This document shows, one piece after another, positions 1,010 through 32,937 of a stretch of DNA of 35,836 nucleotides. Origin of the DNA: an uncultured Elusimicrobium sp. GTDB taxonomy: Bacteria > Elusimicrobiota > Elusimicrobia > Elusimicrobiales > Elusimicrobiaceae. A program made the translations under genes and the position numbers. Each line of letters starts with the position of its first letter. Position 1 is the first letter of the stretch. The notes under the pieces are model-generated. The model was not told the DNA's origin. It made no database searches and saw only the letters and a program-made list of their open reading frames with translations. The stretch covers positions 1 through 35,836 of the forward strand of contig CACXER010000020.1 of assembly GCA_902766765.1 (NCBI GenBank). The letters are read 5' to 3'.

Positions 1010-2398
1010 ATGAGTAAAAATAGTATGCGCCTGGTCCGGCTGGTGATATTGACGGGATTGTTATGGTTTCCCGTGATGTCTTTTTCCGCGCCGGTTAAAA
1101 ACCTGATTTGGATTATTTCCGACGGAACAGGACCGGAAATTATGGGGCTTCTGATGCAAGGGGCCCGTGCCGGCGCGTTGGCCGATTATCCGCAAAAAAC
1201 TACTGCGCTAGAACAGTTATTGCAAGACGGCGAACAGGGATTATTTTTTCATCATACGTACGGTTCGGTGGTGACCGATTCGGCGGCTGCGGCTACGCAA
1301 ATGGCCACAGGCGTCTGGACGTTACCGGACCGGGTGGGGGTGGATTTCCAAGGGAACTCCGTGCCTACGTTATTAGAAATGGCTCAACAAAAAGGTAAGG
1401 CCATTGGCATTATTTCCGATGCGTATGTAACCGACGCCACTCCGGCCGGATTTACGGCTCATGTCTTTAGCCGCCGTCAGAAAATGGAAATTGCGCGGCA
1501 ACAACTTGCGCTGGCTCCGGAGGTAATTTTAGGGGGCGGAAAAAAATATTTTTCCACCGGGGAAAATAAAAACCTACTGGCCCAGGCCCGTGCGCAAGGG
1601 TATCAACTCCCTAAAAATAAAAAAGCGTTGCAAAAAATTCACTCGGGCAAAGTGTTGGGGTTATTTTCCGATACCAACTTGCCCATGGCGATAGAGATGT
1701 ATCAACATCCTGCCGTGCCTACTCTAGCGGAAATGACCGGCCAAGCGCTGGATATTTTAGCACAAGATCCCGAGGGATTTATTTTGATAGCCGAAGCCGG
1801 AAAAGTGGATTGGGCCGCCCATGCCAACGATGCCGGTAGTACGCTCGCCGAACTTAAAGTGCTGGATAAAACGATAGCCGTGGCGCGGGATTTCGCCGAT
1901 AAACACCCCGGGACGTTGGTGTATGTCAATTCGGATCACGATACCGGGTTGGGATCATTTACTTACCAGGTATTAAATCCGCAAGGGGTGGCCCGCAAGA
2001 CTCAAGAAGGGGAAGTATTGTATGACGGTAATACCTTTTATGCCTCTTTTGATACGTTTGCCAAACTGGAAAAACAACGTCGTTGTTTGTACTATTTGGA
2101 AGAAGAACTTAAAAAATTACCGCCGGAAAAATTGACGCCTGCGTTGGTGGAAAAGAAATTACGCGCGGCGCTGGGTTATCCGGTGGATATTTCCGATTTT
2201 GAAAACTTGCAAGATGTGCCCGGTATTTTTAAGCAGTTAAATGATTCGTACGCTATTGTGTGGGCCACGCAAACCCACTCATCGGCTCCGCTAGTCGGTG
2301 TAGCCTATGGCCCGGGACAGGAAGTATTTAAAGGTGTGTATCACAATACCGATATTTTACCTAAACTCAAAAAAGTATTAGGTTGGAGTGAGGAGTAA
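1010..2398 (+). CDS. Alkaline phosphatase family protein, exported
   Basis: This 462-residue protein hydrolyses phosphomonoesters, probably in the periplasm. A Sec signal peptide ends near residue 27 (MRLVRLVILTGLLWF core). Alkaline phosphatase superfamily residues are present: Asp38 in SDGTG, nucleophile Ser91 in VTDSAAAATQ, Asp267 and His271 in VDWAAHAND, Asp309-His310 in SDHDTG, and His423 in THSSAPLVG just before a typical AYGPG turn. Together these account for the two-zinc site. The ATG at 1010 is preferred because it keeps the whole signal peptide and lies 4 bases after glgA; an in-frame ATG at 1025 is an alternative. Neither has an obvious Shine-Dalgarno sequence, so translational coupling to glgA is likely. 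The substrate is unknown. Confidence 0.9.
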   Translation: MSKNSMRLVRLVILTGLLWFPVMSFSAPVKNLIWIISDGTGPEIMGLLMQGARAGALADYPQKTTALEQLLQDGEQGLFFHHTYGSVVTDSAAAATQMATGVWTLPDRVGVDFQGNSVPTLLEMAQQKGKAIGIISDAYVTDATPAGFTAHVFSRRQKMEIARQQLALAPEVILGGGKKYFSTGENKNLLAQARAQGYQLPKNKKALQKIHSGKVLGLFSDTNLPMAIEMYQHPAVPTLAEMTGQALDILAQDPEGFILIAEAGKVDWAAHANDAGSTLAELKVLDKTIAVARDFADKHPGTLVYVNSDHDTGLGSFTYQVLNPQGVARKTQEGEVLYDGNTFYASFDTFAKLEKQRRCLYYLEEELKKLPPEKLTPALVEKKLRAALGYPVDISDFENLQDVPGIFKQLNDSYAIVWATQTHSSAPLVGVAYGPGQEVFKGVYHNTDILPKLKKVLGWSEE

Positions 2399-2399
2399 T

Positions 2400-3191
2400 A
2401 TGGCTAGTCCGTTCGCTGAAGAAAAAACGAAAGAATCTAAACCGCAACGTCATCTTTTTCATTTACACCGGCGGCTGTTTTTGCTCGTGCTGGCGGTGGC
2501 TATTTTGTGGCAGGCGCTTCTCTTGATAGATACACGGCTCAACCAATATTATGAAGCCTTGGAAAGTTCATTTAAGATTATTTTAACCATAGACGGAAAA
2601 ACCGATAATGCCGTGTTGGCTCAAATCGGTGAAACGCTCAACCAGAAGAAAGATATTGCCGCGGTTAAATTGTATTCTTCGCAGGATGGATTAGAGGTGG
2701 TGCGTAAGCAAAATCCGCAATTGGCTCAGTCGTTACTATTGTTAGGTCGCAATAAGATGCCGGCCTACTTTGAATTACATCTTACTCCGCCGGCGGTGCG
2801 TAATGTGTCGGCTTTACTGGATAATTTGACAACAGAGTATAAGGGGCTTACTCCTCATTACAACGCCCAACATGCGCAACTGGTGTTTATTACCGGGTTG
2901 TGCGTCAAAATGTTACGTATGGCGATGTTGCTGGCGGTGCTTACTTTTCTGGCTTTTATGTTTTTGGTGGAGGCCTACCCGAGCCGGAAAAATAGTTCCC
3001 ACTTTGTCAGCGGGATGTTTTCCGGCGTGATGGCTGCCTTGTGTGCCTTTGCCTTTTTTGCAATCCTTATTTATCCGACCGGATTTTTAAGTGATACCAT
3101 ACGGTTTTTTACCACGCCCGCTCGCCAGGTGCTCCTGGTAGTTTTTTGTGGGTTATTAGGATGGACATTATCTAAATGGCAAAAATTTTAG
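2400..3191 (+). CDS. ftsX: FtsX-like cell-division membrane protein
   Basis: The protein has 263 residues with the FtsX layout: a short cytoplasmic N-terminus, TM1 near residues 25-43, an extracytoplasmic domain (about 45-160), then three TM helices (about 170-190, 205-230, 240-258). The outer domain carries the FtsX-type pattern of a beta-alpha unit followed by LLGRNKMPAYFELHL, comparable to the NPLPxSF stretch of FtsX. In the known system FtsX, driven by the ATPase FtsE, transmits a signal to a periplasmic murein-hydrolase regulator. The next gene encodes exactly such a coiled-coil/LytM protein and overlaps this one by 16 bases, which strongly supports the call. No ftsE is adjacent. The ATG at 2400 is chosen because GAGGAG (2390-2395), at the end of the phosphatase gene, is well spaced to it. 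Confidence 0.75.
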   Translation: MASPFAEEKTKESKPQRHLFHLHRRLFLLVLAVAILWQALLLIDTRLNQYYEALESSFKIILTIDGKTDNAVLAQIGETLNQKKDIAAVKLYSSQDGLEVVRKQNPQLAQSLLLLGRNKMPAYFELHLTPPAVRNVSALLDNLTTEYKGLTPHYNAQHAQLVFITGLCVKMLRMAMLLAVLTFLAFMFLVEAYPSRKNSSHFVSGMFSGVMAALCAFAFFAILIYPTGFLSDTIRFFTTPARQVLLVVFCGLLGWTLSKWQKF

Positions 3192-4330
3192 CGTGTTTGT
3201 TAGCGGTAATGTGGAGCGCAAGTGCCTTATGGGCCGGAAACGATGCCGCCGCCCACAAGCGCGAGATTGAGCGGCTTAAACAAGAGGCCGCCCAAAAGGA
3301 AAGCGAACTCAAAAAATACCGCGAACAGGAAAAACAAATTTCTCAGGAAATGACCGCTTTGGAAAATAAAAAGGCTTTGGCTCAGCAACGTAAAAATAAA
3401 GTGGAGTCAGACATTTCGGTGTTGGAGCAAAACTTGCTGTCTGTGGAAGAAAAACGGGCCGCCCTAGAGCGCAGTATTCCCATGTGGCAAGGCGTATCCG
3501 CCGCGGAGTTGGAGGCGTATTATTTTACGCCGGATTGTCCGCTTTGTGTCAACGGATATAGTTTAGAACAAGACATCTTTTTGGATCGCATGCTTACACA
3601 CAAAACGGCCTTTACTGCGGCGTTAGAAGCGGCTAACAAAGAAGCCAAGGAACGTATTTACACATTTGAACAACGTAACAAAAAATTATTGGCGCAGAGT
3701 TCGCGCATAGAAGAAGAACAACACATTATTTCACAATCTTTTAATAAGAAAAAACAAGATTTAGATGTAACCAAACGCAAAGTAGCCGCCGTGCGCAAAG
3801 AAATCAATGAGTTAAATAAATCCGCTGCGGCCTTGAATGATTTGTTAGCATCGTTTGAACGGAAACGTAAAGCGGCCGCCAAGCAAGTGGCTTCTGCTAA
3901 GCCGGCCGCGGGCCCGCAGATCAATGCGGCGCCGAACAGTTTGCCGTGGCCGCTACCGGGTAAAGTGATTAGCAAATTTGGTAAAGAATACCGCGCTGAT
4001 CTAAATACGTGGATTTTCCGCGACGGTATTAAAATTGCCGCTCGCCCCGGGGCTCCGGTGCGTAGTGTAGAGGAAGGAAGTGTTATTTACGCCGGACCGT
4101 TCCGTTCTTATGGCAACGTGGTCATTGTGGATCACTCCAAAGGATTTTTTACCATTTACGGTTTCCTGCGGGAAATCCAAGTGGCAGTGGGCGATAAACT
4201 TGCCCGTCAAGGTGTTCTCGGTACGGCAGGCCAAGATACTCAGGCCTCATCCGGAACCGGGCAAAGTGCCGTTTATTTTGAAATTCGCCAAGGTACGGCG
4301 GCCGTAGATCCGCTACTTTGGTTAGAGTGA
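3176..4330 (+). CDS. envC: EnvC-like murein hydrolase activator (coiled coil plus degenerate LytM/M23)
   Basis: The 384-residue protein has a signal peptide (about 1-20), a long charged heptad-type coiled coil (about 28-230) broken by a short Cys-containing segment near residues 118-124, a linker, and a C-terminal LytM/M23 domain (about 255-384). The fold landmarks of M23 are clear (FGKEY, PGAPVRSVEEGSVIYAG, YGNVVIVDH, VGDKL, YFEIR). All expected zinc ligands appear lost: the first His is Arg282 and the Asp is Lys286, the later Y-x-H reads YGF, and HLHFE reads AVYFE. A non-enzymatic LytM domain is what EnvC uses to activate amidases. It overlaps the FtsX-like gene upstream and so probably acts in septal peptidoglycan splitting. 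It is followed 8 bases later by the protease gene. Confidence 0.85.
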   Translation: MAKILACLLAVMWSASALWAGNDAAAHKREIERLKQEAAQKESELKKYREQEKQISQEMTALENKKALAQQRKNKVESDISVLEQNLLSVEEKRAALERSIPMWQGVSAAELEAYYFTPDCPLCVNGYSLEQDIFLDRMLTHKTAFTAALEAANKEAKERIYTFEQRNKKLLAQSSRIEEEQHIISQSFNKKKQDLDVTKRKVAAVRKEINELNKSAAALNDLLASFERKRKAAAKQVASAKPAAGPQINAAPNSLPWPLPGKVISKFGKEYRADLNTWIFRDGIKIAARPGAPVRSVEEGSVIYAGPFRSYGNVVIVDHSKGFFTIYGFLREIQVAVGDKLARQGVLGTAGQDTQASSGTGQSAVYFEIRQGTAAVDPLLWLE

Positions 4331-4338
4331 GAGGAATT

Positions 4339-5718
4339 ATGAAAGATAAAAAATTAAACCGTTATGCATTAGTTGCCGCTGTTGTCTTTTTTATAGGCAC
4401 GTTATTCCCTTATGCCTATGGGGCGGCGGAACGCAGTTTGAAACAACTGCGCGTATTAGTGGACGTGATTGAGTTTATCAAGGAAAATTATGTGGAACGC
4501 ACCGATACCGATAAATTAGTGGCCGGGGCCATTCGCGGTGTGGTGCGGGAGTTAGATGATTTTTCCCAATACTTGGACCCCAAAGATTATAAGAATTTAA
4601 AGAATGACACCCGCGGCGAATTCGGTGGACTAGGTATACGCCTGCAGAAAAAAGACGGTTTTGTTACCGTAGTTACGCCCATGCCGGGCACTCCTGCTTT
4701 TAAAGCCAAGATTATGCCCGACGACCGGATTATCAAAGTAGACGGGAAAGAAATTTCCGCCATGGAATTGGAAGACGCGGTGGAAATTATGCGCGGGCCT
4801 ATAGGCAGTAAAGTCAAGTTATCTATTTCTCGCAAGGATTCAGTATCCGGTGAGTTTAAGCCCATTCCGGATGTACGCCTCAAACGTGAACGGATTGTGC
4901 CCGAGGTGGTGTATTTCCGTATGTTGCCTAATAAAGTGGGCTACCTTTATATGGTAGATTTTTCCGGACATAGTTTAGAGGAAGTGAAAAAGGGCCTTAC
5001 CGCTTTGAAAAAACAAGGGATGACGTCGCTGGTATTAGATTTGCGTTTTAATCCCGGTGGGTTGCTATCCGGTGCGGTGGATATTGCTAAATTATTTTTG
5101 CCGGCCGATAAAATGATTGTTTATACGCAAGGACGTAAAAAGGAATATTATCAGGAGTTCAAAACCGCGGTAGACGGCGATTATTTAAACGTGCCGATGG
5201 CGGTGCTTGTCAATCCGGGTTCGGCCAGCGCCAGTGAAATTGTATCCGGTGCACTGCAAGACCACAAACGTGCATTTGTGGTTGGGCAACGCACCTTTGG
5301 AAAAGCCAGTGTACAACAAGTAATTCCTCTGGCCGGCGGAGCCGGGCTACGTTTAACCATTGCTCGGTATTATACTCCGCTGGGCCGCCTGATCCAACGC
5401 GACTACCACAATAAAGAAAAAGCCGACGAGGGGGGAATTTGGCCCGATGTGGAAGTGGTGGTAAAAGCCGACGACGAAATTAAGGTGTTTACTCCCTATC
5501 GTGATGTGGTCTATACGCCCGGTGGCAAAGAACCGGTGTTGGAATTTAAAGAAAAAGACCCCGTATTGGATAAAGCCGTGGCTATTTTAACCGGTAAAGA
5601 AACATTAGAAGCGGCCAAAGCGCAAAGCGAAAAAGAAGCCGCCAAACGGAAAGCCGAAAAAGAGAAAAAACAAAAAGATTCGTCTGAATCTGAGGAAACG
5701 GACGAAACGGGAAACTAA
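4339..5718 (+). CDS. ctpA: C-terminal processing peptidase, S41 family, with PDZ domain
   Basis: The 459-residue protein has an N-terminal signal anchor (about 8-28), an S41 N-terminal helical part (FIKENYVE, SQYLDPKDY), a PDZ domain (about 85-170; GGLGIRL, GTPAFKAKIMPDDRI) and the S41 protease core. The catalytic pair is readable: Ser297 in GSASASEI and Lys322 in RTFGKASVQ, 25 residues apart as in Prc/CtpA. It would cleave envelope proteins near their C-termini. The tail after about residue 420 is very rich in Lys and Glu and looks disordered. The ATG at 4339 is chosen because GAGAGGA (4329-4335) lies just upstream. Position after an EnvC-like gene agrees with the known tie between Ctp proteases and control of peptidoglycan hydrolases, but a direct link is inference. 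Confidence 0.93.
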   Translation: MKDKKLNRYALVAAVVFFIGTLFPYAYGAAERSLKQLRVLVDVIEFIKENYVERTDTDKLVAGAIRGVVRELDDFSQYLDPKDYKNLKNDTRGEFGGLGIRLQKKDGFVTVVTPMPGTPAFKAKIMPDDRIIKVDGKEISAMELEDAVEIMRGPIGSKVKLSISRKDSVSGEFKPIPDVRLKRERIVPEVVYFRMLPNKVGYLYMVDFSGHSLEEVKKGLTALKKQGMTSLVLDLRFNPGGLLSGAVDIAKLFLPADKMIVYTQGRKKEYYQEFKTAVDGDYLNVPMAVLVNPGSASASEIVSGALQDHKRAFVVGQRTFGKASVQQVIPLAGGAGLRLTIARYYTPLGRLIQRDYHNKEKADEGGIWPDVEVVVKADDEIKVFTPYRDVVYTPGGKEPVLEFKEKDPVLDKAVAILTGKETLEAAKAQSEKEAAKRKAEKEKKQKDSSESEETDETGN

Positions 5719-5721
5719 TTT

Positions 5722-6744
5722 ATGAAACCGGATGTAGCAATTTTGGGTATAGAGTCTACCTGTGATGAAACTTCCGCCGCGTTGCTTGTCGGTGGAAAGG
5801 AACTGGTGTCTAATGTTATTTATTCGCAAATTGACGAGCATAAAAAATACCACGGGGTCGTGCCGGAATTGGCCAGCCGGGCACATGCGGCCAAAATTGC
5901 CACGGTAATAGCCGAGGCCCTTGGCGATAAACCGTTAGATTATGTGGCCTTTGCCAGCGGACCGGGGCTCCCCGGAGGACTCATGGTGGGGCGTGTCGCC
6001 GCTGAAACATTGGCGCAATTTAAACAAGTACCGCTTATCGGTGTTAACCATTTGGAAGGCCATTTGTTTGCCTGTGATTTTGAAGGCACACAGGTTAAAG
6101 ACCGATTGCAATTTCCGCTGATTGCTCTCATTGTCTCCGGCGGGCATACGGAATTGTGGTATGTCAAAGGGTATGGCGATTATAAGGTGCTTGGCCGTAC
6201 GCGTGATGATGCGGCGGGCGAGGCCTTTGATAAAGTGGCCAAATTGTTAGGGTTGGCCTATCCCGGCGGTCCGCAAGTATCTAAACAGGCGCTTTTGGGT
6301 CGGCGCGATGCGATTGCTTTTCCGCGTCCGTTACTGCCAGGTACGTGGGAATTTTCGTTTAGCGGTATTAAAACGGCCGTCAGTTATTATTTACGCGACC
6401 ATCAAAACGTATCCGTGCCCGATGTCTGTGCCAGTTTTGAAACGGCCATGGTAGATACACTGGTTACCAAAACGCTGCTTGCCGCGCAAAAATACAAGGT
6501 CAAACATATTGCGGTGGGAGGCGGTGTGGCGGCCAATGCGCTACTTCGTCAGGAAATGCAAGCGCGCGCGGCGGCTAAACAAATAGAAGTGCATTTTGTG
6601 GAGCGGAAATTATCTTCCGATAATGCGGCCATGATTGCATTATGCGCCTATAAAAAGATACAATACGCTCGTGAAACCGGTAAACCGCTTGCGGCTAATA
6701 TCAACATAGATCCAAATATGAAAGTGCGCAACTGGGGGAAGTAA
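5722..6744 (+). CDS. tsaD: tRNA threonylcarbamoyladenosine transferase subunit TsaD
   Basis: The protein has 340 residues, the normal length for bacterial TsaD (YgjD/Kae1), which with TsaB and TsaE installs t6A at position 37 of ANN-decoding tRNAs. The N-terminus ILGIESTCDETS is the family signature; the metal-binding HxxxH is VNHLEGHL (His110, His114); SGPGLPGGLMVG, IVSGGHTEL and VGGGVAANALLR are all typical of the ASKHA fold. It is an essential housekeeping gene, 3 bases after the protease gene, and its presence in an envelope operon probably reflects general operon packing rather than function. Confidence 0.97.
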   Translation: MKPDVAILGIESTCDETSAALLVGGKELVSNVIYSQIDEHKKYHGVVPELASRAHAAKIATVIAEALGDKPLDYVAFASGPGLPGGLMVGRVAAETLAQFKQVPLIGVNHLEGHLFACDFEGTQVKDRLQFPLIALIVSGGHTELWYVKGYGDYKVLGRTRDDAAGEAFDKVAKLLGLAYPGGPQVSKQALLGRRDAIAFPRPLLPGTWEFSFSGIKTAVSYYLRDHQNVSVPDVCASFETAMVDTLVTKTLLAAQKYKVKHIAVGGGVAANALLRQEMQARAAAKQIEVHFVERKLSSDNAAMIALCAYKKIQYARETGKPLAANINIDPNMKVRNWGK

Positions 6745-6746
6745 TT

Positions 6747-7946
6747 ATGATTTTATGGGTAATGCCCGATTCGGGCGCGAAAACGATGGAAGATTATGCC
6801 ACGTTAGTCGCGTTATTTAAAAAAGAAAATCCGTCGGTAGATGTAACCGTGCGCGTGTTTACGCGTAACGTGCTCTGGCGGCGGGTGTTTACGCTTAAAG
6901 ATCCCACGCACGAAGAAATGCCCGACCTCATTCAGATCCCGCATTATTGGACGGCTTTGTTAGTCAAAGCCGGTGTGGCGGAAAACTTATCTCAATTGGA
7001 CCCGGGCTTATCGCTTACCGATTGTTTGGTGCCGCTTAAAGAACACTGTTATCAACCGGGTACGAAAGATATCTATTCTTATCCGTGGTGGTTTGATTTA
7101 AGCGCGCTCCACTATCGGGCCGATCATTTAAAGTTAGTTTCCGCGCGCCCGGAAGAAGACCTCAAAACATGGCATGGGCTTTTACAAATTTGTCAGGCCT
7201 TGCGGGAGCAATTTGGCAACATCCCCGGGTATTATCCGATGCAAAATAGCGACTGGCGCGGTTCGCTTTCCATGCGCAGTGCTTTGCCGTGTATGTGGAG
7301 CCGGGGACTCAATTTCTTTACGGAAGACCGAGCGGCTACGCTTGTTGGTTCCAAAGAATTTAAAGAGGCCCTTCACGATTATATTACGTTAGCGCTTAAA
7401 GAATATATGCCCATTTTGCGTGAGCGTGGTTCACTGGGAACGATTGTTTCCGGCAAAGCCAGTATGATGATTTCGCGCAAACAAGGTATCAGTATGTTTA
7501 GTGCCAAGCGCGGCATGCGTGTGTGCACGTTGCCGGTGCCGGCAGCGGGGGACCAATCGGCGGCGTATTTATCGGGGATGAACTGGTTTATCAGCACACT
7601 TTCTCAACATAAAAAAGAGGCGCTGATGTTTATTAAATTCTGCGCGCGGCCCGATATGCAATTGCGCTACAGCCACATGATAGAGGCATTCCCGGCATTT
7701 GAAGAAGCGTTTGAGCCGTTTATTTCTTCTTCGCCGCGTTTGCAAGTGTATAAAGAAATCTTGCCGACGGCGCATACGTTGCCCAACATGATTATTATGG
7801 GTACGGTAATGGAAATTTTAAAGCGGCTGCTTGCCATGTGTGCGGCACAAATTGTGGAGCACCGTTTCACGCAAGCGTCGCTGGACCGCGAACTGGATAT
7901 GACGGCCAAAGAAATAGAATACTTGCTTTCTATTTATAAGGGGTAA
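6747..7946 (+). CDS. Solute-binding-protein fold (ABC sugar-type) without export signal
   Basis: The 399-residue protein resembles family 1 extracellular solute-binding proteins: MILWVMPDSG at the start matches the first mature beta strand, followed by a FKKENPSVDVTV segment, a PDLIQIPHYW segment, a central YSYPWWFDLSALHYR hinge-type region and KASMMISRKQG. The protein begins directly at the mature fold. No signal peptide or lipobox is present, and the in-frame sequence upstream is hydrophilic with stops at 6672, 6681 and 6696, so none was missed. The ATG is 2 bases after tsaD with GGGGGAAG as ribosome site. No ABC permease or ATPase is nearby; the next gene, 4 bases on, is a diguanylate cyclase. 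A cytoplasmic ligand sensor is a possible role (inference). Loss of the signal by mutation is less likely, given the intact start context. Confidence 0.75.
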   Translation: MILWVMPDSGAKTMEDYATLVALFKKENPSVDVTVRVFTRNVLWRRVFTLKDPTHEEMPDLIQIPHYWTALLVKAGVAENLSQLDPGLSLTDCLVPLKEHCYQPGTKDIYSYPWWFDLSALHYRADHLKLVSARPEEDLKTWHGLLQICQALREQFGNIPGYYPMQNSDWRGSLSMRSALPCMWSRGLNFFTEDRAATLVGSKEFKEALHDYITLALKEYMPILRERGSLGTIVSGKASMMISRKQGISMFSAKRGMRVCTLPVPAAGDQSAAYLSGMNWFISTLSQHKKEALMFIKFCARPDMQLRYSHMIEAFPAFEEAFEPFISSSPRLQVYKEILPTAHTLPNMIIMGTVMEILKRLLAMCAAQIVEHRFTQASLDRELDMTAKEIEYLLSIYKG

Positions 7947-7950
7947 GGTT

Positions 7951-9477
7951 ATGTTTGATAAGAAATCCTATACACTTTACAAATTTCATAAACAAATCAA
8001 CCAATCGTTTCAGGACAGGCGTGAACTGTTGGAATGCGCGCTTCCGGCGTTGCGTGATATGTTCCGCTTGGACCGCGTCTATTTTTTTGACTGGCAACAG
8101 GAACGTGCCATTTTATCCCTGCGTATGATGTGCAAAAAAGAATACTGCATGGACATGCAGGAGGATATTTCCGTCGCCAATGAGCCGGCTTTCTTGCGCC
8201 AACTCTTGCAAAAAGGAGTAGCGGAGACGACGGATTTAAGTTACCCGGCATTGTATGTGCTGATTCGTTGGTTGCGTCCGACCGTGGAATTAAAATCGGG
8301 CGAGGTCCATTCGTTCATGCGTGAAAAAGTAGGGGTTTTGCGCTTGGAGCGTTTCCGCAAAAACCGTGTATTTACGGATGCGGAAATTGACCTCATTAAA
8401 GATTTAGGGGCGGAAATCTCGCACAACTTACACAACACGGAAATTGACCAAGCCAAAAATCAGCGGCTTAGCATTTCCACCGCGCTTAATGATTTATCTA
8501 CGATTTTTGCCTCGTCGCTACGCTTGAATGACGGATTGGAACTTATTTTAAAAGGTATCCAACGCTATTTCCATTTTGACCGGGTGCATTTGTATTTAAC
8601 CAACTCCGAAGGCACGCGTATTAAATCGGTGTTGGGAGTGGATATTTCGGGAAACGTAACGCAGGAGTCCGGAGATAGTTTGCGCGACGAAGAAAAACAA
8701 ATTTTAAAAGAAGTATTTGAATCGTCTGCCACGTACCGTGCCAAACGCAGCGTGATTTATCTGCCGCTTAAAGTCCAGCGTACCAAAGTAGGTTTTTTGA
8801 CGTTTGACAATATCCTTTCCCGCCGGAAAATTGGCTATTTGGATTTTATTTCTCTGCAACAATTTGCCACGCAAATGGCGTTGACGATTGACAACGCGCG
8901 CCTGTTTGAACGTGTGCAAGAACTTTCCAATTATGACGAACTAACCAAACTTCCGGTGCGCCGGTATTTCAACGAAAAATTCGCCGAAGAAATTTACCGC
9001 GCCAAACGGTTTGGGCTGTCGCTCTCGCTTATCATTATGGACATTGACTGGTTCAAGCAAATCAACGACAAGCATGGGCACCAAATTGGTGACTGGGCAC
9101 TCAAGGCCGTGAGCAAAATTATCCGCTCGTCCTTGCGTCAGACGGATGTGCCTTGCCGCTTTGGCGGAGATGAAATGGTTATTATGCTTCCGCGTACCAA
9201 CAGCGAAGAATCCAAAGTGATCGCCCGCCGCTTGCAAGAACGCATTTGTGATGTCGTCTTGCCGGACCGCAATGCACTTGAGCCGGAACACCTCAGTATC
9301 AGCCAAGGGATATCCTCTTTTCCTTCCGATGGTACAACGGCCAACGAACTGTTAGAGAAAGCCGACCAGGCACTCTATGTAGTCAAGCAACATGGCCGCG
9401 GCAATTTTGCGGTATACCGCGAAGTGGCCGAACAAGTCCAACAGACGAGTCCCGAAGAACAAAAAGAAGAGAAGTAA
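7951..9477 (+). CDS. Diguanylate cyclase with two GAF-like domains
   Basis: The protein has 508 residues and no signal peptide or TM helix, so it is cytoplasmic. An N-terminal GAF-like region (about 20-165) and a second, clearer GAF (about 180-325, ending LTIDNARLFERV) precede a GGDEF domain (about 330-490). The domain has LIIMDIDWFKQINDKHGH and the active loop GGDEM (Gly405-Met409), with Met replacing the usual Phe, a change some active enzymes tolerate. An RxxD product-inhibition site (Arg396-Asp399) lies five residues before the loop, so feedback by c-di-GMP is expected. It is preceded 4 bases upstream by the signal-less solute-binding protein and is the last gene of the left operon. The output c-di-GMP could feed the pilus and surface functions downstream (inference). 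Confidence 0.92.
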   Translation: MFDKKSYTLYKFHKQINQSFQDRRELLECALPALRDMFRLDRVYFFDWQQERAILSLRMMCKKEYCMDMQEDISVANEPAFLRQLLQKGVAETTDLSYPALYVLIRWLRPTVELKSGEVHSFMREKVGVLRLERFRKNRVFTDAEIDLIKDLGAEISHNLHNTEIDQAKNQRLSISTALNDLSTIFASSLRLNDGLELILKGIQRYFHFDRVHLYLTNSEGTRIKSVLGVDISGNVTQESGDSLRDEEKQILKEVFESSATYRAKRSVIYLPLKVQRTKVGFLTFDNILSRRKIGYLDFISLQQFATQMALTIDNARLFERVQELSNYDELTKLPVRRYFNEKFAEEIYRAKRFGLSLSLIIMDIDWFKQINDKHGHQIGDWALKAVSKIIRSSLRQTDVPCRFGGDEMVIMLPRTNSEESKVIARRLQERICDVVLPDRNALEPEHLSISQGISSFPSDGTTANELLEKADQALYVVKQHGRGNFAVYREVAEQVQQTSPEEQKEEK

Positions 9478-9907: not shown

Positions 9908-12900
9908 ATGAACAACATCAAAAATTTAATCCGTCTCACCGTCGTTAAAACGGCCACCGCGGCCCTTTTAGCGGCATTTGTTTTTGCGGCGGTTGTACCC
10001 GCTCATGCCCAAACGGCCGACGTCCGCTACGCCGGGGTGTTTTATAAAGATCATCCTGCCAACACTAAGGAAATGTACTGCGATTATGTAACTACGGGTG
10101 CCACTACTGGTAAATCCAGTCCGTTTAACAACTCTACAATATTTTCTAATGCTCGCATAACAACTAACAATTATCCAACGGTAGGCGATATATATCCTGA
10201 TGGATCCGTTCAAGTACAATATTTGGGAAGTTTGGTAAGTTCTGCCATTGCATCGGTGGCTACCCTTCGTATTCCTGGAGCTACCTATAACGCGGGGGAT
10301 TATTATTATATTACTAGGGGAAGTTCTTTATTCTCGACAGATTTTTATTTCCAAGTCATAACGGCGGGTACGGCAGACTCCGTGAATAATAGTGATTTCG
10401 CTACTTCCGTTGGTTTTTCTACAACATATACCCCAAGAACAACTTTAACAGATGGAGAGTTAGTACTCACATTTTCTGGAAGTTCTTGTGGTTCGCCCGC
10501 CCGTCAGTCTAATCATAGTTACTCGGTGGGAGACACCTACCAACTTACTTCTGGTACGACTACCTATTGTTATACGGTATCCGGTATTTTGGATGGATCG
10601 GTGGCGATTCCCATAGCAGCTGGAACAACTGCTAATCGTAGTTTTATTTTTGAACCTAAACCGGCAAGTGCTTCCCACAACAATGACCCTTGGGTGAGTT
10701 CCGCACTTATTGAATACGACCAACCGTACAGTTCGTCGACTACTCCTACAACCCCTGGAGAGGGATACGAAGCGAACGAATATCCCAACCATTGTTTGGC
10801 TCTCTGTATGAATGTGAAGTGTTCCAATAAACCGCTTGGGGGTAGTACTTATTCTATTTCATTTCCACTCCAACAAATCCGGTTTGATGTGGTGAAATAC
10901 TATAACGGAAAAAATGTGGAAAATCCGGAAGAAACTCCGGCACTCCGTACCATTGATTTATATCCGAATGAAAATGCAGCGCGTTGCGGTTCATATAAGT
11001 GCCCGGGCTCTAATACAAGTGGATGGACTTGTAACTCTGCTAGATATTATTGCTCTAGTAACGGAGAGAGAGTGACTGTGCCCGTGACAGGAAAATGGAT
11101 AGGGGTTTCTAGTTGTAGTGACTGTGCCGCTTTTGATGGATCATCCGCTGCCCCTACTGATTGTAAATGTGCGGATGGTGTGTGTACCTTTGCCATTTGG
11201 AATGGAGACGGGACTCCTTCTACTGATAATCAAACCATCCCGTTCTGTGCGGCGTGGGACGGTTCGTATGAAATCGCAGGCGAATTCGGTAAAACAAACG
11301 GTAACTTTGCTTTCCGCGCTACCGTAAAGACCGACGTCCCCGGTGATAACATTATTACCGATAAAATCACTTTTGATTCTACGATCGCCTACCCGGGTAT
11401 GAACCAAATCCCGATACAGGTGGACGTAACTAATATCCATACCGTGCGCAGTACGCCTACGTTAGTCGGTAACATTACGCCGGTGTCCGCGCAACCTTAT
11501 ACTTATGCATACCGCTTAAGTAAAGATGCGGACGTGCGCGTAGCTGTGTTTGATGCGTCCAACTTGGACGCGGCGGTTTATGCCAGTACGGTGGCCGCTA
11601 CGTCAAACACCAGCACGCCGATCGGTGATGCGGGTAATACATACAGCGATTTAATCGTCCGCACGATTACCGATTGGCAACCGCGCATTGGCGAAGGTAT
11701 GAAAGGTACGGAAAAGGACGTGCAAATCACAGAGTTTGACTCGTGGGACGGACGCGATACAAGCGGTATGTTACTCCCTGCGGGTAATTACCTGGTTTCG
11801 TTACAAGCCAAGTCTGCCGATGAATGGCACGGTATTGACTTCTCCCGTGCCGTTACGCGCCAGTTATCTTTAGACCCCTTGAAACTGACGGATGTGGTGT
11901 CCGTGGGGTTAACCAAACAATCCACGGCGTATGCGTCTATTACCTACACGCCGACGGAATCTTCCAAAGTGTATTGGAATATTTACACGCCCGGTACTAC
12001 CTTTGATAGTGTGCTGACGGATTCTTCCGATGCAACGGGTACGGCACCGCACAACCCGACGGGTGGTTCCTTGGTGTACTCGCTCATTGAAGACCGCGTA
12101 GGCCGTATGAACTTTACTTCTAAATGGGATGGTCTGTGCGGAATTACGACCGGTTGTACCCGCACGTATGCCGCGGGCGAGAAAAAATCCGACGGTACTG
12201 TTGCCGCGGCGGGTGATACGGAAACGTTTGCTTACGGTTCCCCCATGCCCGACGGCAACTACGTATATGTGTTATGGGCGGAAATCCCCTATAACGGTAA
12301 ATACGTCAATGCGGTGGGTAGCGGCACAACCCCGCCCGCGCCGAAATTTACACCTAACGGTGCTTGTTCGGGGACTGCGCCGGAAATTGACAAACAATGT
12401 TTTACCGGTGTAAAGACGTTGAAATATACCGTCGGCGAAATTGCTGTGGAACGCGGCGTGGTGGACGTAACTATCCAACCCGTCAGTTATTCTACGGTGG
12501 GATCCAGCCCGACGGCTTACGGCTTAGACCCGTTCATCTTCAAATACTCTATCGCGCGTGACGCTACGGTGGTGGCTAAAGTAACCAACACCGCCGGTGC
12601 CAACGTGAAATTCTTAACGCCCGAAGAAGGTGTCACGCAAGTCGCCCAACAAATGAACACCATTTCGTGGGACGGCCGCGACGATGCCGGACGTATGGTT
12701 ACCCCCGGTACCTATATGTTTGTGGTGGAAACGGAAGATGCTATGTTCCCCGCTATTACCAACCGCGCCAGCGCAGTCTTCCCGGTGGATATGTACCGTG
12801 TGGTGGACTTGGCTACTACCGATGTATATGGCGATAGCGAGGCCAAAGCCACTATTTCCTATGCGCTTTCCAAAGCCATGAACACCCAAGTCAATATATA

Positions 12901-15121
12901 TAATAAGGATGTAGTCATCCCCAGTTATCAAACTACCACGGGTGATTACTCAAGTGCCGCTGTAACCGGTTCTGTAACGACGAACGGGTATACGAACGTA
13001 CTAAACCCCGTAACTATCAATGTAGACGAAGTGCCTAACGCGTACACCATGCCTGCTGGGTTAGGGACGTTTGTTGCCGGCGAAACACAAACAGTGGTGG
13101 CTCTTGTCGGTACAACGTATCACCGCTACACCGTCACGTTGAAGAACAACCCGGCAAATACGGCCACGCCCACCACGTGGTATGAACCTTACCTATATAT
13201 GGTAACGGTCATAGATGAAACATTAGATATCACGGCCGGTACCGCTGCTTGGCCGCCGCGCGTGTGTAATACGACGGATGATGCTGCGTATTTCACGGGT
13301 GGTTATGTCGACCCGGCCAAACAACCGACTTGTATTTACGTAAACAAAACGACCTTTACCAACTACCCGGCCAATGCTGCGGCTGTGGCTCAGGGTAATG
13401 TGGACGTACGCTTACAACCGATTAAAACGTTTGAACGTTCTTCCATGCACCCCGGCGACGGTTTAACCATCACCGAGGAATGGGACGCGCTCTACTTCCG
13501 CAATCCGGAAAGCCCGGCTTGTGCGGGTTCTACCAACTTGCAAAACTGCTCGTATGAAATGTTGCCCGACGGACAATATTCGTTCTACGTGTCCGCGCGC
13601 TCCAACGAGCCGTTTGACCGCTACTATTATGATAGTAACGTAGATAGTACCACCCACCCCACGGATCCCGTTACCGGAAATGCGTACCTCAACGGCACGC
13701 CGTTTAGAAGCGACGATGCGAACGGTACGTTCGTGACGCAAGATTACCTCTACGCTACGGATAAGGTTACCAGCAAAATCAACGTAACCCGCGGCTCTGT
13801 GTACTTCTTGGACGGTTCTACCGTGGTCTATCCGAATGCGCCGCAACTCTTTAACGTGTCGTCCGGCCCGGTGTTCGTGCCGCCGTACGAAATCAACTTC
13901 TCCGTCAGCCGCGCGGCTACGGTAGATATTGAAATCGTTGCCTTGCAAGACGGCGTTTGTACACCTGACCCCACTGTGCACGCGGACCTCAAGAATAACC
14001 GTGCGGGCGATGTGTGTAAGTCGCTTACAACCGTAACGATTCCCAACACGGGACACTTTGACCCGAATATCGTACGCAAGACGTATTGGGACGGTACCGA
14101 TAATAACGGTTTCTACGTCAAACCCGCTATCTATGAAGTGCGCTTGACGGCTAAGAACTATCCCAATCCGTACCTGTATCAACCGACGGTTAAGAGCATT
14201 ACGCTCAATGCCGACCTCTTGAAAGTCTTTGACCTCTTGGAGGCCGACGGCTATTCTATCTCCGTGCGCGGAGCCAATATGAAGATCGGTTATCAGATCT
14301 CTGTGCCGATGAAAGTGGCCTTACAAATCTTCAAACCCGGTACCACGATTTACGACTACCAAAAAGGTACGCTCCGTAATCCGACCACCGGAACTGAAGT
14401 CAAAGATATCCACGAAGTGTTAGTCAAAGCCATTGTGGGTATCCGCCCGGCCACCACCTTGATTGAAGAAGTTTGGGATGGCACCGACTACGCCGGACAA
14501 GAAGTGCCCGACGGTACCTACCCCTTCCGCTTCGTCACGGCTATCAATAGCGCTGATATTGATAGCGTAACGGGTGAAATTGTAGGCGAATGGGATAATA
14601 CGGACGGCCAGGCCAGTCAACCGGCTTTGTGGAAAATCAATAAAGTGGCTGATACCTATGAATATCAGAACTTGCACAAAGCCACTATCGCTATCGGCGA
14701 CGGACAATTCGTCTGCGAAGACTGGGAGAAAACGGTATTCTTCTATCCTAACCCGTTCACCGAAACGAACGGTACGTTAGAAATTACCAAGATGCCCGTG
14801 CCCGGCGAAGTGTCCATCAAGTTCTTTAACTTAGCGGGCGACCTCGTGCGCGACGGCGGTTATACCTGTGTGGATGCGAACAACTACCAAACGACCATGG
14901 GTAGCAGTTTGAAGTTCCAACCGGATAATAACGTCAGCAACACACCGGTCAACTTGGCTAACTTTGAAAATATCCGCAACGCCGCCCTGCGCTGCCGCTG
15001 GGATAAAACCAACCAGCACGGCAAGAAAGTGGCCCGCGGTGTATACTTTGGTTTGGTAGACTTCAAAGCCCAAATGGGTCGCGAACACTGCCAAAAAGTA
15101 GTGAAGGTATTGATCCCATAA
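9908..15121 (+). CDS. Giant exported surface protein with FlgD-type Ig repeats and CTD-like end
   Basis: The 1737-residue protein starts with a Sec signal peptide (about 1-34, ending AHA-QT). Residues about 35-290 are Ser/Thr-rich. Residues about 295-450 contain 13 Cys, several as CxxC or CxC, suggesting disulfides or metal binding. From about 450 onwards at least seven FlgD-like Ig units recur, each with a WDGxDxxGxxxPxGxY-type turn, at about residues 612, 737, 919, 1190, 1391, 1521 and 1697. The C-terminus has YPNPF (about 1612) and VARGVYFGLV, like the C-terminal Ig domains of bacteria with type IX-style sorting. A PorV-like barrel follows within 50 bp. The likely role is surface adhesin or fibre (inference). 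The first third has lower GC and different codon use from the rest. The start is supported by AGAAGGG 7 bases upstream. Confidence 0.85.
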   Translation: MNNIKNLIRLTVVKTATAALLAAFVFAAVVPAHAQTADVRYAGVFYKDHPANTKEMYCDYVTTGATTGKSSPFNNSTIFSNARITTNNYPTVGDIYPDGSVQVQYLGSLVSSAIASVATLRIPGATYNAGDYYYITRGSSLFSTDFYFQVITAGTADSVNNSDFATSVGFSTTYTPRTTLTDGELVLTFSGSSCGSPARQSNHSYSVGDTYQLTSGTTTYCYTVSGILDGSVAIPIAAGTTANRSFIFEPKPASASHNNDPWVSSALIEYDQPYSSSTTPTTPGEGYEANEYPNHCLALCMNVKCSNKPLGGSTYSISFPLQQIRFDVVKYYNGKNVENPEETPALRTIDLYPNENAARCGSYKCPGSNTSGWTCNSARYYCSSNGERVTVPVTGKWIGVSSCSDCAAFDGSSAAPTDCKCADGVCTFAIWNGDGTPSTDNQTIPFCAAWDGSYEIAGEFGKTNGNFAFRATVKTDVPGDNIITDKITFDSTIAYPGMNQIPIQVDVTNIHTVRSTPTLVGNITPVSAQPYTYAYRLSKDADVRVAVFDASNLDAAVYASTVAATSNTSTPIGDAGNTYSDLIVRTITDWQPRIGEGMKGTEKDVQITEFDSWDGRDTSGMLLPAGNYLVSLQAKSADEWHGIDFSRAVTRQLSLDPLKLTDVVSVGLTKQSTAYASITYTPTESSKVYWNIYTPGTTFDSVLTDSSDATGTAPHNPTGGSLVYSLIEDRVGRMNFTSKWDGLCGITTGCTRTYAAGEKKSDGTVAAAGDTETFAYGSPMPDGNYVYVLWAEIPYNGKYVNAVGSGTTPPAPKFTPNGACSGTAPEIDKQCFTGVKTLKYTVGEIAVERGVVDVTIQPVSYSTVGSSPTAYGLDPFIFKYSIARDATVVAKVTNTAGANVKFLTPEEGVTQVAQQMNTISWDGRDDAGRMVTPGTYMFVVETEDAMFPAITNRASAVFPVDMYRVVDLATTDVYGDSEAKATISYALSKAMNTQVNIYNKDVVIPSYQTTTGDYSSAAVTGSVTTNGYTNVLNPVTINVDEVPNAYTMPAGLGTFVAGETQTVVALVGTTYHRYTVTLKNNPANTATPTTWYEPYLYMVTVIDETLDITAGTAAWPPRVCNTTDDAAYFTGGYVDPAKQPTCIYVNKTTFTNYPANAAAVAQGNVDVRLQPIKTFERSSMHPGDGLTITEEWDALYFRNPESPACAGSTNLQNCSYEMLPDGQYSFYVSARSNEPFDRYYYDSNVDSTTHPTDPVTGNAYLNGTPFRSDDANGTFVTQDYLYATDKVTSKINVTRGSVYFLDGSTVVYPNAPQLFNVSSGPVFVPPYEINFSVSRAATVDIEIVALQDGVCTPDPTVHADLKNNRAGDVCKSLTTVTIPNTGHFDPNIVRKTYWDGTDNNGFYVKPAIYEVRLTAKNYPNPYLYQPTVKSITLNADLLKVFDLLEADGYSISVRGANMKIGYQISVPMKVALQIFKPGTTIYDYQKGTLRNPTTGTEVKDIHEVLVKAIVGIRPATTLIEEVWDGTDYAGQEVPDGTYPFRFVTAINSADIDSVTGEIVGEWDNTDGQASQPALWKINKVADTYEYQNLHKATIAIGDGQFVCEDWEKTVFFYPNPFTETNGTLEITKMPVPGEVSIKFFNLAGDLVRDGGYTCVDANNYQTTMGSSLKFQPDNNVSNTPVNLANFENIRNAALRCRWDKTNQHGKKVARGVYFGLVDFKAQMGREHCQKVVKVLIP

Positions 15122-15161
15122 GGAGAGATAATTTCCACTTGTGAAAAGGAAAATGAAATTT

Positions 15162-16145
15162 ATGAATATCAAAATCAAAGTTTTAACAGTCGGTTTAGTA
15201 GTTGCCTTTTGCGGCGCGTCTGCTTGGGCCAGCATCAATGAAAATGCCGGTACCAGCGCGGGAGCGTTCTTGAAAATCGGTGCGGGGGCTCCTGCCGCTA
15301 CGGCACTGGGTAATGCCTATGTGTCGCTGGCTGACGGCCCGCAAGCGCTGTTTTGGAACCCGGCCGGTGCGGCCAGTGCCTCTACGCGCGAAATAGGATT
15401 TTCGTACATGGACTATTTGCAAGGGTACAAAGCGCGTACGCTTTCGTACTTGCAACCGATTGGTAAAACGATTATCGGCGTATCCTTAAATTATATGGAT
15501 ATGAAAAACTTCGACTTCCGCGATAAATGGGGCCACCCATTACCGGAAGTTGGGGTGCCGGTGCAAAACTTTGTGGGCGGATTATCTATCGCGCGCGGGT
15601 TTATCAACCAGAAATTGCAAATCGGCGGTACGGCTAAGTATATCAGCGAACGCTTGTACAACGGTTCCGGCCATAACCACTATGATAACGTCGGTTTTGA
15701 TGTAGGGGCTAAACTGCGCCTGGTCAACTGGCTGGGACTCGGTGGTGCTTTAGTCAACATTGGCGATAAAGAAGAAATGCCTAACGGTGTACGTTTAGGG
15801 GCGGATTTGGATACGCGTTATTTCACTATTTCCGGTGAATATATGAAGTATAAAGACGACAACGCCCGCTACGGTTTCGGTTTAGCCGTACATATTCCGG
15901 AAGATTTGTTACAGGTCGCACGCTTTGATTTGCGCGTCGGCTATTATACGCGTGAAAATACCGGTGTTAATACGCAAGATTCGTGGGTTAAAGAAGTCGG
16001 CCTGCAAGAAACGTCGCGCGTATCGTTCGGGTTCGGTATTTACAGTTCCGAACTGTTTGGGTACGGGGCATCTATTGATTACTCCGTTACGCCGTTTGGT
16101 GCGCTCGGTACATCGCAACAAATTGCGGTGTCTGTGCAATTCTAG
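15162..16145 (+). CDS. PorV/UPF0164-like outer-membrane beta-barrel protein
   Basis: The mature protein begins with GTSAGAFLKIGAGAPAATALGNAYVSLADGPQALFWNPAG, in pieces the hallmark of the PorV/PorQ/UPF0164 group of FadL-like barrels. A signal peptide (about 1-23, ending ASA/AWA) precedes it, the body alternates short amphipathic strands with turns, and the chain ends in Phe (VSVQF), the usual barrel-assembly signal. In type IX secretion PorV delivers substrates with a C-terminal sorting domain to the surface; the gene just upstream encodes a protein with such an Ig-like end, so this could be its partner (inference). The start at 15162 gives a compact signal peptide with AAGGA 11 bases upstream; ATG at 15153 and GTG at 15141 are in-frame alternatives. 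The stop is 2 bases before the first pilin gene. Confidence 0.85.
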   Translation: MNIKIKVLTVGLVVAFCGASAWASINENAGTSAGAFLKIGAGAPAATALGNAYVSLADGPQALFWNPAGAASASTREIGFSYMDYLQGYKARTLSYLQPIGKTIIGVSLNYMDMKNFDFRDKWGHPLPEVGVPVQNFVGGLSIARGFINQKLQIGGTAKYISERLYNGSGHNHYDNVGFDVGAKLRLVNWLGLGGALVNIGDKEEMPNGVRLGADLDTRYFTISGEYMKYKDDNARYGFGLAVHIPEDLLQVARFDLRVGYYTRENTGVNTQDSWVKEVGLQETSRVSFGFGIYSSELFGYGASIDYSVTPFGALGTSQQIAVSVQF

Positions 16146-16589: not shown

Positions 16590-17075
16590 ATGAAATTTTG
16601 TAAGAAGTGTGGGGGGCAGGTAACTGCGGAACTCATGCTGATTTTGCCGGTATTTATGCTCATGATTTTCTTTGTGCTTGAATACGGCAACATCGCATAC
16701 CACACGGTTATTGCAAACCACGCTTCTTACGAATTTGCCCGTATCGGCTCGCTGGTGGCCGTTAAAAAACCCAGCGGCCGGCCGGATCGGACGGTCATTA
16801 CCCAAAAGGTAAACCAGGCCAAACAGAAAGTATTTGGCTCTAAAGCAGGCGGAATCGGTGTCAACGTAAAAGTAGAAACTACCGGCGTGGACCCCATGTA
16901 TAAGAAGCACCGCCACGAAGATGTAATTATTACGGTAACGTATCCGGTGCATTTGTTATTTCCGGGTACCAGTTATGTGCTCGCCAGCGAGCCCAAACGC
17001 GAAGGCATCCGCCGTATTAAAGCCGTAACGCGTATGCCGATAGATAAGACGTATTTAAGTTCGGACACGAAATAG
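16590..17075 (+). CDS. tadE: TadE-like minor pseudopilin
   Basis: The 161-residue protein has a short leader KFCKKCGG, then QVTAELMLILPVFML with Glu14 at mature +5, and a single N-terminal TM helix followed by an exported domain of about 120 residues. This is the TadE arrangement: pseudopilins processed by the prepilin peptidase and needed for Tad pilus assembly. YEFARIGSL after the helix is a typical TadE-like continuation. It is 3 bases after prepilin 2. The leader carries two Cys residues close to the cleavage point, which is unusual. Confidence 0.8.
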   Translation: MKFCKKCGGQVTAELMLILPVFMLMIFFVLEYGNIAYHTVIANHASYEFARIGSLVAVKKPSGRPDRTVITQKVNQAKQKVFGSKAGGIGVNVKVETTGVDPMYKKHRHEDVIITVTYPVHLLFPGTSYVLASEPKREGIRRIKAVTRMPIDKTYLSSDTK

Positions 17076-17118
17076 ATTTGAAAGTATTAAAAGATTGCTG
17101 TAATTTTAAGGAGACAAT

Positions 17119-17874
17119 ATGAAAAGCAGAGGAGTCTTTCTACCCATGATCGTGGCGGTAATAGCCGCACTCATATACTGGATGATTGTAAGCAGCGCGG
17201 AAAAGAAATTAAACGCTTCCAAAAACGTGAAGGAAGTGTTTGTGGCGCTTCGCGATATCAAAGAGCGCGAAGTGATTAAACGCGATTTGATTCACCATGT
17301 ACCGGTTCCGGCCGCGTATATCCAAAAAGACGCGTTTACTTATTCCACCGAGGCCGATTTTAAAGCCATAGAAAATGCGGTAGCGCGTATTCAAATTGCG
17401 AAAGGGAACCAGATTTCTAAATATGCTATTACGTCGTTATCTCCGGAAGCGGGGCTATCCAGCAAAATTCCGGTGCAAATGCGCGGCTACCTGATTAGTG
17501 TACCGATTGCTACGGCCAGCATGATTAAACCCGACGACAACGTGGACGTGCTTTTGACTTTTGAAGCCGTCATGAAAAGCGGCAACCGCCAACGGGTGGC
17601 GCTCACGTTGTTGCAGAACGTCAAAGTGCTCGGGGTAGGCGCGGATTTAGGTCAAGGATTGGATGCCCGCACCGCCAATGCTATGAAGAGCAAAGATGAA
17701 GATGCGGCGGCTTTCTCGGATAACTCCACACTTTCGCTCGCGCTGTCTCCGCGCGATGCGCAGTACTTGGCGTTAGCCGAAGCGGAGGGCGATATCTCCG
17801 TCATTTTACGTTCTCACGGTGACGTGAATAACTACTTGATGGAAATTGCAACCTTTGAAAAATTATTTAACTAA
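17119..17874 (+). CDS. cpaB: Flp pilus assembly protein CpaB/RcpC
   Basis: The 251-residue protein has an N-terminal TM anchor (about 5-25) and a SAF-like domain (VFVALRDIKEREVIKRDLI, about 40-65, and the AIENAVARIQIAKGNQI segment, about 85-110), then the CpaB-specific GYLISVPIATASMIKPDDNVDVLLTF in pieces and LQNVKVLGVG. CpaB/RcpC sits in the periplasm beside the secretin and is thought to stabilise or gate it. The ribosome site AAGGAGAC (17109-17116) fixes the ATG. A gap of 43 bases from tadE is one of the larger ones inside the locus. The secretin gene follows 11 bases on. Confidence 0.9.
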   Translation: MKSRGVFLPMIVAVIAALIYWMIVSSAEKKLNASKNVKEVFVALRDIKEREVIKRDLIHHVPVPAAYIQKDAFTYSTEADFKAIENAVARIQIAKGNQISKYAITSLSPEAGLSSKIPVQMRGYLISVPIATASMIKPDDNVDVLLTFEAVMKSGNRQRVALTLLQNVKVLGVGADLGQGLDARTANAMKSKDEDAAAFSDNSTLSLALSPRDAQYLALAEAEGDISVILRSHGDVNNYLMEIATFEKLFN

Positions 17875-17885
17875 CGGGATGATTT

Positions 17886-18629: not shown

Positions 18630-18633
18630 TCGT

Positions 18634-20952: not shown

Positions 20953-20959
20953 AAGAGAT

Positions 20960-22582: not shown

Positions 22583-22584
22583 AT

Positions 22585-32392: not shown

Positions 32393-32937
32393 TGAAAAAG
32401 TTATTTCCGTTTGTTCGTTCCCGCCAAGGCCAGGCCACTACCGAAGTAGTGTTGCTGTTCCCTATCTTTGTGGTTTTTATTTTATTTATTATCAAAATTT
32501 TCGGTTTACTCGTGCTCAGCCAAAAAATGGAAATCGCCGGCTATTATGCGGCCCGTCGTTTTCAACTGCAATCACACGAAACCGATTATTACCAACGTAC
32601 GTGGGATAAGCGGTTTTTGGAAAAAGACATTCAACAGAAAATAGAAAACTATTTGGGATTTGATAATCCCGGTATGCGTAAATTTTTAAGTTTAAATAAA
32701 CTGAAAATGGAAATCAACCGCTCCGGCACGTGGACGAAGTTGGTATTGACGGCACAAACAAATCCGCCGCGGGTTCCTTTTCTGTGTAAGTATAATAAGG
32801 ACCAAGTCTGCGACCGCGATGCAAAGTGTCTAAAAGGATATGCCTTTTTGTGTGAAACCGGGGGGGAAGTGTCCGTCATTAAATACGTAGGCCACAACGA
32901 ACGTCCGGCCCCTTACCAGCGCCCTGAAGGAAAATAA
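32392..32937 (+). CDS. TadE-like pseudopilin 2
   Basis: The 181-residue protein has a basic leader to Gly13, QATTEVVLLFPIFVVFILF with Glu18 at mature +5, one TM helix, and an exported domain of about 140 residues with four Cys (FLCKYNKDQVC, AKCLKGYAFLC). That is the TadE pattern. The ATG at 32392 overlaps the previous stop by one base (TGATG) and is 5 bases from GGAG; a GTG at 32389 is the alternative start. It ends the pilus gene string and is followed by a perfect terminator. Confidence 0.78.
   Translation: MKKLFPFVRSRQGQATTEVVLLFPIFVVFILFIIKIFGLLVLSQKMEIAGYYAARRFQLQSHETDYYQRTWDKRFLEKDIQQKIENYLGFDNPGMRKFLSLNKLKMEINRSGTWTKLVLTAQTNPPRVPFLCKYNKDQVCDRDAKCLKGYAFLCETGGEVSVIKYVGHNERPAPYQRPEGK

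Follow-up and report, generated by a model that had tools for sequence, protein, structure and literature searches.

What role an importer-type solute-binding protein (SBP) could play inside the cell, when its gene lacks an export signal and directly precedes that of a diguanylate cyclase, is the question raised by a locus of an uncultured Elusimicrobium sp. SBPs are described as extracytosolic, about 1% of the matches to their profiles being predicted to be cytosolic (PMC9602780), and the binding-protein domains of c-di-GMP proteins are described as periplasmic (PMC8846402). The window, i.e., the whole stretch of DNA analyzed, comprises 35,836 nucleotides; it is contig 20 in the assembly of genome G000, which amounts to 1.36 Mb and is 87% complete. 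The close relatives of the locus belong to Elusimicrobium or Elusimicrobiaceae, for which rumen and gut origins are frequent. The distribution of the gene pair was established by profile searches across 341 Elusimicrobiota genomes with follow-up at single loci, and the features discussed below are collected in Table 1.

Table 1. Coordinates of the gene pair, its motifs and surrounding features (window positions unless a locus is given; amino acid numbering from the start of each protein).
Feature	Position	Strand	Basis or remark
FtsX-like, M23 peptidase and S41 (CtpA) protease genes	2388..5718	+	Upstream context, conserved
tsaD, gene preceding the pair	5722..6744	+	Families f1, f2, f5, f8, f26–f29; context only
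In-frame stop, 16 codons 5' of the SBP ATG, inside tsaD	6696..6698	+	No ATG/GTG/TTG between
Signal-less sugar-type SBP, 399 aa, proposed cytoplasmic sensor	6747..7946	+	ORF, Pfam, model, PDB match, relatives
MxxWxxxD, N-terminal motif = first beta strand	6747..6770	+	Trp4 invariant in 50/50 aligned SBPs; Asp8 (Asn in 16/50)
SBP residues 40–44	6864..6878	+	Trp44 invariant in 50/50; residue 40 (Arg here) aligns with Thermus Trp41
SBP Trp68	6948..6950	+	Invariant in 50/50; aligns with Thermus Trp67
PWWFD, SBP residues 113–117	7083..7097	+	Residue 117 acidic in 44/50 (Asp/Glu), aligns with Thermus Glu117
Gap from SBP stop to cyclase start, 4 bases	7947..7950	+	
GAF-GAF-GGDEF diguanylate cyclase, 508 aa, proposed output of the pair	7951..9477	+	ORF, Pfam, model, alignment
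First GAF-like domain, about aa 1–140	7951..8370	+	AlphaFold2; weak Pfam GAF_2 match at the same position in relative L164
Long linker helix, aa 143–188	8377..8514	+	AlphaFold2 model
Second GAF domain, about aa 192–315	8524..8895	+	Pfam and AlphaFold2
GGDEF catalytic domain, aa 327–484	8929..9402	+	Pfam and AlphaFold2
RxxD inhibitory site, R396-Q-T-D399	9136..9147	+	Kept in 29/29 aligned cyclases
GGDEM active loop, aa 405–409	9163..9177	+	GG[DE]E kept in 29/29; last position varies
Type IV pilin-like genes	window 35119–35649; L201:2154–2738; L202:431–994; L203:2383–3171; L205:2616–3194; L206:734–1234		

The region downstream of the pair encodes a 1737-residue secreted protein with an FlgD-type Ig domain and an outer-membrane-like protein (9908–16145), an arrangement shared by several genomes of the order. 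A Tad/Flp pilus set (RcpC, a secretin, a large T2SSE ATPase, two T2SSF proteins and TadE) occupies 16590–23472 and 31271–32937, with histidine kinase and response regulator genes interspersed between its parts, and a single 772-residue protein (18634–20952) combines a ParA/MinD-type domain with a T2SSE ATPase as an apparent TadZ-TadA fusion. Type IV pilin-like genes with a near-identical N-terminus of 18 residues are scattered singly in the genome among unrelated neighbors.

Fold and Compartment of the Binding Protein

The first protein of the pair matches SBP_bac_8 (E 9e-17) and SBP_bac_1 (E 7e-8) in Pfam, and its AlphaFold2 model, based on 50 aligned homologues, is two-lobed and complete from strand 2–5 onward (pLDDT 93, pTM 0.91), in agreement with the preliminary description, which placed the start of the protein at the first mature beta strand. 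The best PDB match of the model over the whole length is the cellotriose complex 7c67 of the Thermus thermophilus beta-glycoside-binding protein (TM 0.86), followed by CbpB of Clostridium thermocellum (7x0i, TM 0.84), and the family profile covers 7c63 of the Thermus protein end to end (E 5e-76) and matches CbpB (7x0i) with E 1e-70. Pfam, the model and the PDB matches all assign the two-lobed fold of ABC-importer SBPs (SBP_bac_1/8) to this protein.

The signal peptide or lipoprotein signal of such SBPs was found in no member of the pair. The 16 codons in frame before the ATG (6699–6746) translate as YQHRSKYESAQLGEVI and contain no ATG, GTG or TTG; a signal peptide was therefore not overlooked, and the earlier claim of a closed upstream frame stands. 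In the pair SBPs examined, a start is possible at the same strand or at most about 20 residues from it. The maximum 12-residue hydropathy within the first 45 residues ranges from -0.04 to 1.64 in 35 pair SBPs as against 1.73 to 3.42 in 10 exported relatives, and the median cysteine content is 1.31% versus 0.51% (p = 3e-4), as would suit a reducing compartment. The upstream frame at L180, with about 26 hydrophobic residues, was considered as a possible signal and is read as non-coding, the frames of its sisters L181 and L182 stopping within a few codons. The pair SBP is thus presumably cytoplasmic.

Transporter genes were said to be missing nearby, and none was detected in a Pfam scan of 21 window proteins, 19 of which are neighbors of the pair. 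Exactly two binding-protein-dependent permeases (BPD_transp_1) are present in most genomes of the genus; those of the window's genome are of the peptide type (DppBC/OppBC), and a sugar-type ABC permease was found neither in this genome (87% complete) nor indicated by the permease number of G010 (99% complete), which is the same. With only a peptide-type pair in the genome, no sugar-type permease is available to the SBP. The possibility of a defense system was also considered and rejected, PADLOC giving no match.

Domains and Motifs of the Cyclase

The second protein matches GGDEF (E 1e-44) and GAF_3 (E 1e-7) in Pfam, and its monomeric AlphaFold2 model consists of a GAF domain, a 46-residue helix, a GAF domain, a 31-residue helix and the GGDEF domain. 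The architecture originally given as GAF-GGDEF holds for the presence of both domain types and requires amendment for the GAF domains, of which the model, together with the weak Pfam match in L164, indicates two instead of one. These two domains could be the real sensors of the cyclase. That the neighboring gene, four bases away, keeps both its active loop and its RxxD site was confirmed by GGDEM and by R396 and D399. In all 29 aligned cyclases D364, F368, K369, N372, D373 and D381 are invariant; the GG[D/E]EF-type loop is accompanied by the metal-binding residues D364, N372, D373 and D381. Judged by its catalytic loop and RxxD site, the protein is an intact diguanylate cyclase with predicted activity. 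Decay of the cyclase in the diverged genus g11, where a stop was flagged in two genomes, was rejected, the frames and the GGDEF, metal and I-site motifs being intact. A purine-rich AAGGGG at the end of the SBP gene (7938–7943, + strand) could be an element that serves the cyclase.

In the window's genus, the pair cyclase is the top-scoring cyclase of a small c-di-GMP network, the rest of which comprises a REC-GGDDF protein, one or two GGDEF-EAL proteins, one HD-GYP protein and one PilZ protein; knowledge of its ligand would therefore give access to the physiology of a gut lineage that has received little study. Further c-di-GMP proteins of the window's genome are a receiver-GGDDF protein (L201:1213–2145) and a membrane protein with a degenerate GGDEF and an EAL domain (L202:1082–2935).

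Distribution and Genomic Context of the Pair

The pair was found in 14 family-level groups among the 341 genomes (f1, f2, f3, f4, f5, f6, f8, f14, f22, f25, f26, f27, f28 and f29). Of 41 relatives, 40 have the SBP, among them every one of the 16 that fall in the same order and another family. The cyclase lies directly downstream of the SBP at 77 of 80 named loci, the remaining three ending at a contig edge. Whether the signal-less SBP is always adjacent to the cyclase had been suggested as a check, and this proved true, with no exception, at every Elusimicrobiota locus with enough contig. One partner without the other was not encountered at any checked locus with room on the contig; the apparent single-gene counter-examples in G285, G233, G301 and G299 are all cut by contig ends and were rejected. 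No tabulated genome of family f7 has a strong match to either partner. At the f5 loci L180–L182 the adjacency is retained and the cyclase is better kept than the SBP, whose sequence has diverged extremely (2.68 changes per site on its branch) and whose ligand or role may have changed.

In f1, f2, f5, f8 and f26–f29 the pair lies behind tsaD, usually preceded by the CtpA, M23 and FtsX genes, and adjacency proves little in these families because their gene order is conserved generally. The pair is intact in other surroundings in six families (L161, L163 and L193 of f6; L183 and L188 of f3; L186 of f4; L187 of f25; L162 of f22; L164 of f14), so that it is no by-product of a single frozen operon, and the expected conservation of adjacency in relatives extends to these other neighbors. 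Only the non-tsaD contexts, which may go back to one or more moves, are strong evidence for the pairing. In two distant genomes (L162 and L164) a lipoprotein SBP gene comes first, followed by two permease genes (preceded in L162 by an MFS gene), the signal-less SBP and the cyclase, and this ABC sugar importer in front of the pair is a hint that the internal SBP reads an imported sugar. Homologues with signal peptides and permeases nearby had been named as the finding that would speak against a cytoplasmic sensor; the signal-bearing relatives form a separate branch (99/94), and the importer at L162 and L164 has its own lipoprotein SBP.

SBP-GGDEF fusions suggested at L160, L184, L194, L195 and L198 were rejected, these long frames being open because of high GC and lying over tsaD or over one another in other frames. 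Real fusions of another kind exist at L165 and L168–L171 (about 757–785 aa), where a membrane segment links an exported sugar-type SBP to a MalF-like permease; at these five loci (L165, L168, L169, L170 and L171), the binding protein and the channel subunit are supplied by one gene. Beyond Elusimicrobiota, a scan of genome contigs with a pattern derived from this clade gave, among the matches listed, Elusimicrobiota or bacteria without a lineage in the title, and a plasmid search gave 611 matching records, among which the 25 matches listed are 24 Thermus importer SBPs and one Nonomuraea sequence with no annotated genes there.

Phylogeny and Candidate Ligand Pocket

In a tree of 46 SBPs, 35 pair members are split from 11 exported proteins by a single branch (99/94; 98% of bootstrap trees), the pair members lying on one side of it and being a clade under some positions of the root. 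The same family groups are separated in the cyclase tree. The distances between the SBPs and between the cyclases are correlated (r = 0.74; 0 of 2000 permutations as high), as is expected because shared ancestry suffices for such a correlation. Among three close relatives, dN/dS is 0.05–0.08 for the SBP, as low as that of tsaD (0.06–0.09), with 0.04–0.05 for the cyclase, which places the SBP under normal strong selection.

The pocket of the Thermus protein provides a reference for the candidate ligand site, W41A being the mutant in PDB 7c6x and W67A and E117A having likewise been made by the depositors. Across 50 SBPs, the position of Thermus Trp41 is occupied by Arg in 29 and by Trp in 8, and in the alignment the counterpart of Thermus Trp177 is not kept in the pair SBPs; the ligand may thus differ from that of the Thermus protein or be a non-sugar compound. 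From the partly conserved pocket residues, a sugar-like ligand is likely for the pair SBP.

Proposed Function of the Pair and Alternative Explanations

Since the export signal is lost and the SBP is inherited beside a c-di-GMP enzyme, the two proteins are probably an internal sensor. The explanation favored here, with a confidence moderately above even, is that the pair forms a two-protein cytoplasmic c-di-GMP sensor in which the sugar-type SBP controls the GAF-GAF-GGDEF cyclase through predicted ligand binding and contact. In the inferred scheme, which extends to the binding of a ligand, the contact between the two proteins and the sense and manner in which the cyclase would be controlled, an ABC-importer SBP of the Thermus beta-glycoside-binding type would have lost its export signal, most simply once and early in Elusimicrobiota, and the signal-less protein would have come to act together with a soluble GAF-GAF-GGDEF diguanylate cyclase. 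In the cytoplasm, the SBP would bind a carbohydrate or sugar-like ligand, and its two lobes would move from open to closed. The open or the closed form may then dock on the cyclase dimer at its GAF domains or linker helices, comparably to the action of SiaC on the stalk of SiaD (PMC8457831), and the docking could shift the alignment of the GGDEF domains and thereby raise or lower c-di-GMP synthesis, in which product inhibition via RxxD should persist. Possible outputs are attachment structures, namely the FlgD-type Ig protein and the Tad/Flp pilus set downstream in the window. The more specific proposal that an importer-kind SBP became a permanently cytoplasmic, free-standing receptor that docks on the cyclase and reports an internal sugar level (of an imported sugar, glycogen-derived maltodextrin or a cell-wall fragment) in the form of c-di-GMP, with an old origin and a spread over much of Elusimicrobiota, is given an even chance. 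If true, the SBP fold would be shown to be usable as a soluble receptor module of the cytoplasm, and the pair would offer a ready-made switch from ligand to c-di-GMP.

The presence of two GAF domains in the cyclase could also mean that these domains sense and that the SBP, having lost ligand binding, serves the cyclase in the cytoplasm as a scaffold or constitutive partner. The two changed Thermus pocket positions would agree with such a role, as would the known activation of a cyclase by a partner that binds its stalk, SiaC-SiaD (PMC8457831). However, conservation is among the highest at the tryptophans and at acidic residue 117, which fall in the Thermus binding cleft in the alignment; a scaffold would have no need of this and is regarded as unlikely. 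Mere neighborhood by frozen operon order, with shared expression and no shared function, would be in line with the conservation of FtsX-M23-CtpA-TsaD with the pair in the order and several further families, but it is improbable in view of the persistence of the pair with other neighbors in six families, the f7 genomes tabulated without a strong match to either partner, and the failure to find, at the loci checked, an intact genome with the two genes apart.

SBP-type folds have elsewhere turned into cytosolic enzymes, as in MqnA/MqnD and HisG. The SBP of the pair might similarly be a cytoplasmic enzyme to whose product the cyclase responds. Although SBP profiles do recognize cytosolic single-domain proteins (PMC9602780), the closest relatives of the pair SBP are sugar binders over their whole length, and the invariant residues in the alignment are tryptophans and form no new polar cluster, so that an enzyme is thought very improbable. 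A role in transport, by export through an unrecognized route or by service to a permease elsewhere in the genome, would be in keeping with the best solved relatives, all of which are ABC-importer SBPs; against it stand the lack of a signal peptide in every pair member, the high cysteine content, the restriction of the genus to a peptide-type permease pair, and the separate lipoprotein SBP of the sugar importer adjacent at L162 and L164, which together render transport scarcely credible. The two-protein cytoplasmic sensor is therefore retained as the preferred explanation.

Comparison with Known Systems

The use of the SBP fold in this manner was not known as a described system to the author of the preliminary description, and the literature searched, which includes few subscription journals, yielded no paper on an SBP and a cyclase paired in the cytoplasm. 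Of the 27 families of the clan, only SBP_bac_3 has been studied in c-di-GMP networks (PMC8846402). In NspS-MbaA, known from Vibrio cholerae and also from Sinorhizobium meliloti, an SBP senses the ligand for a partner c-di-GMP enzyme (PMC8967002, PMC9993111). The Elusimicrobium pair is similar in that an SBP is paired with a c-di-GMP enzyme and no permease, here by gene adjacency alone. In contrast to NspS, which is periplasmic, binds polyamines and acts on the membrane receptor MbaA (PMC8967002), the pair SBP is of the sugar type and has no export signal, and, unlike MbaA, the pair cyclase is soluble in the model, which shows two GAF domains joined by linker helices to the rest and lacks any separate periplasmic domain.

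In SiaC-SiaD of Pseudomonas aeruginosa, a cytoplasmic partner controls a soluble diguanylate cyclase by binding directly to its stalk (PMC8457831), and SiaC itself is regulated through phosphorylation within the SiaABC pathway (PMC7647112). Both systems possess a separate cytoplasmic partner gene that adjoins the gene of a soluble cyclase; the partner in the pair has an SBP fold, absent from SiaC, and is proposed to be governed by a ligand. The Thermus thermophilus beta-glycoside-binding protein (PDB 7c63–7c71) and CbpB (7x0i) are the closest solved relatives over the whole length, but these are exported SBPs of ABC importers, whereas the pair SBP lacks both the signal and a sugar-type permease in its genome. 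In RmcA and CdgH, an SBP-type ligand domain fused to GGDEF/EAL controls c-di-GMP turnover; these domains are described as periplasmic and joined via a membrane helix (PMC8846402; CdgH: PMC5431781), in contrast to the separate, signal-less SBP of the pair. The pair thus resembles NspS-MbaA transferred to the cytoplasm, or SiaC-SiaD with another partner, and belongs to neither: the parts and the principle are known, and the compartment and the arrangement are new.
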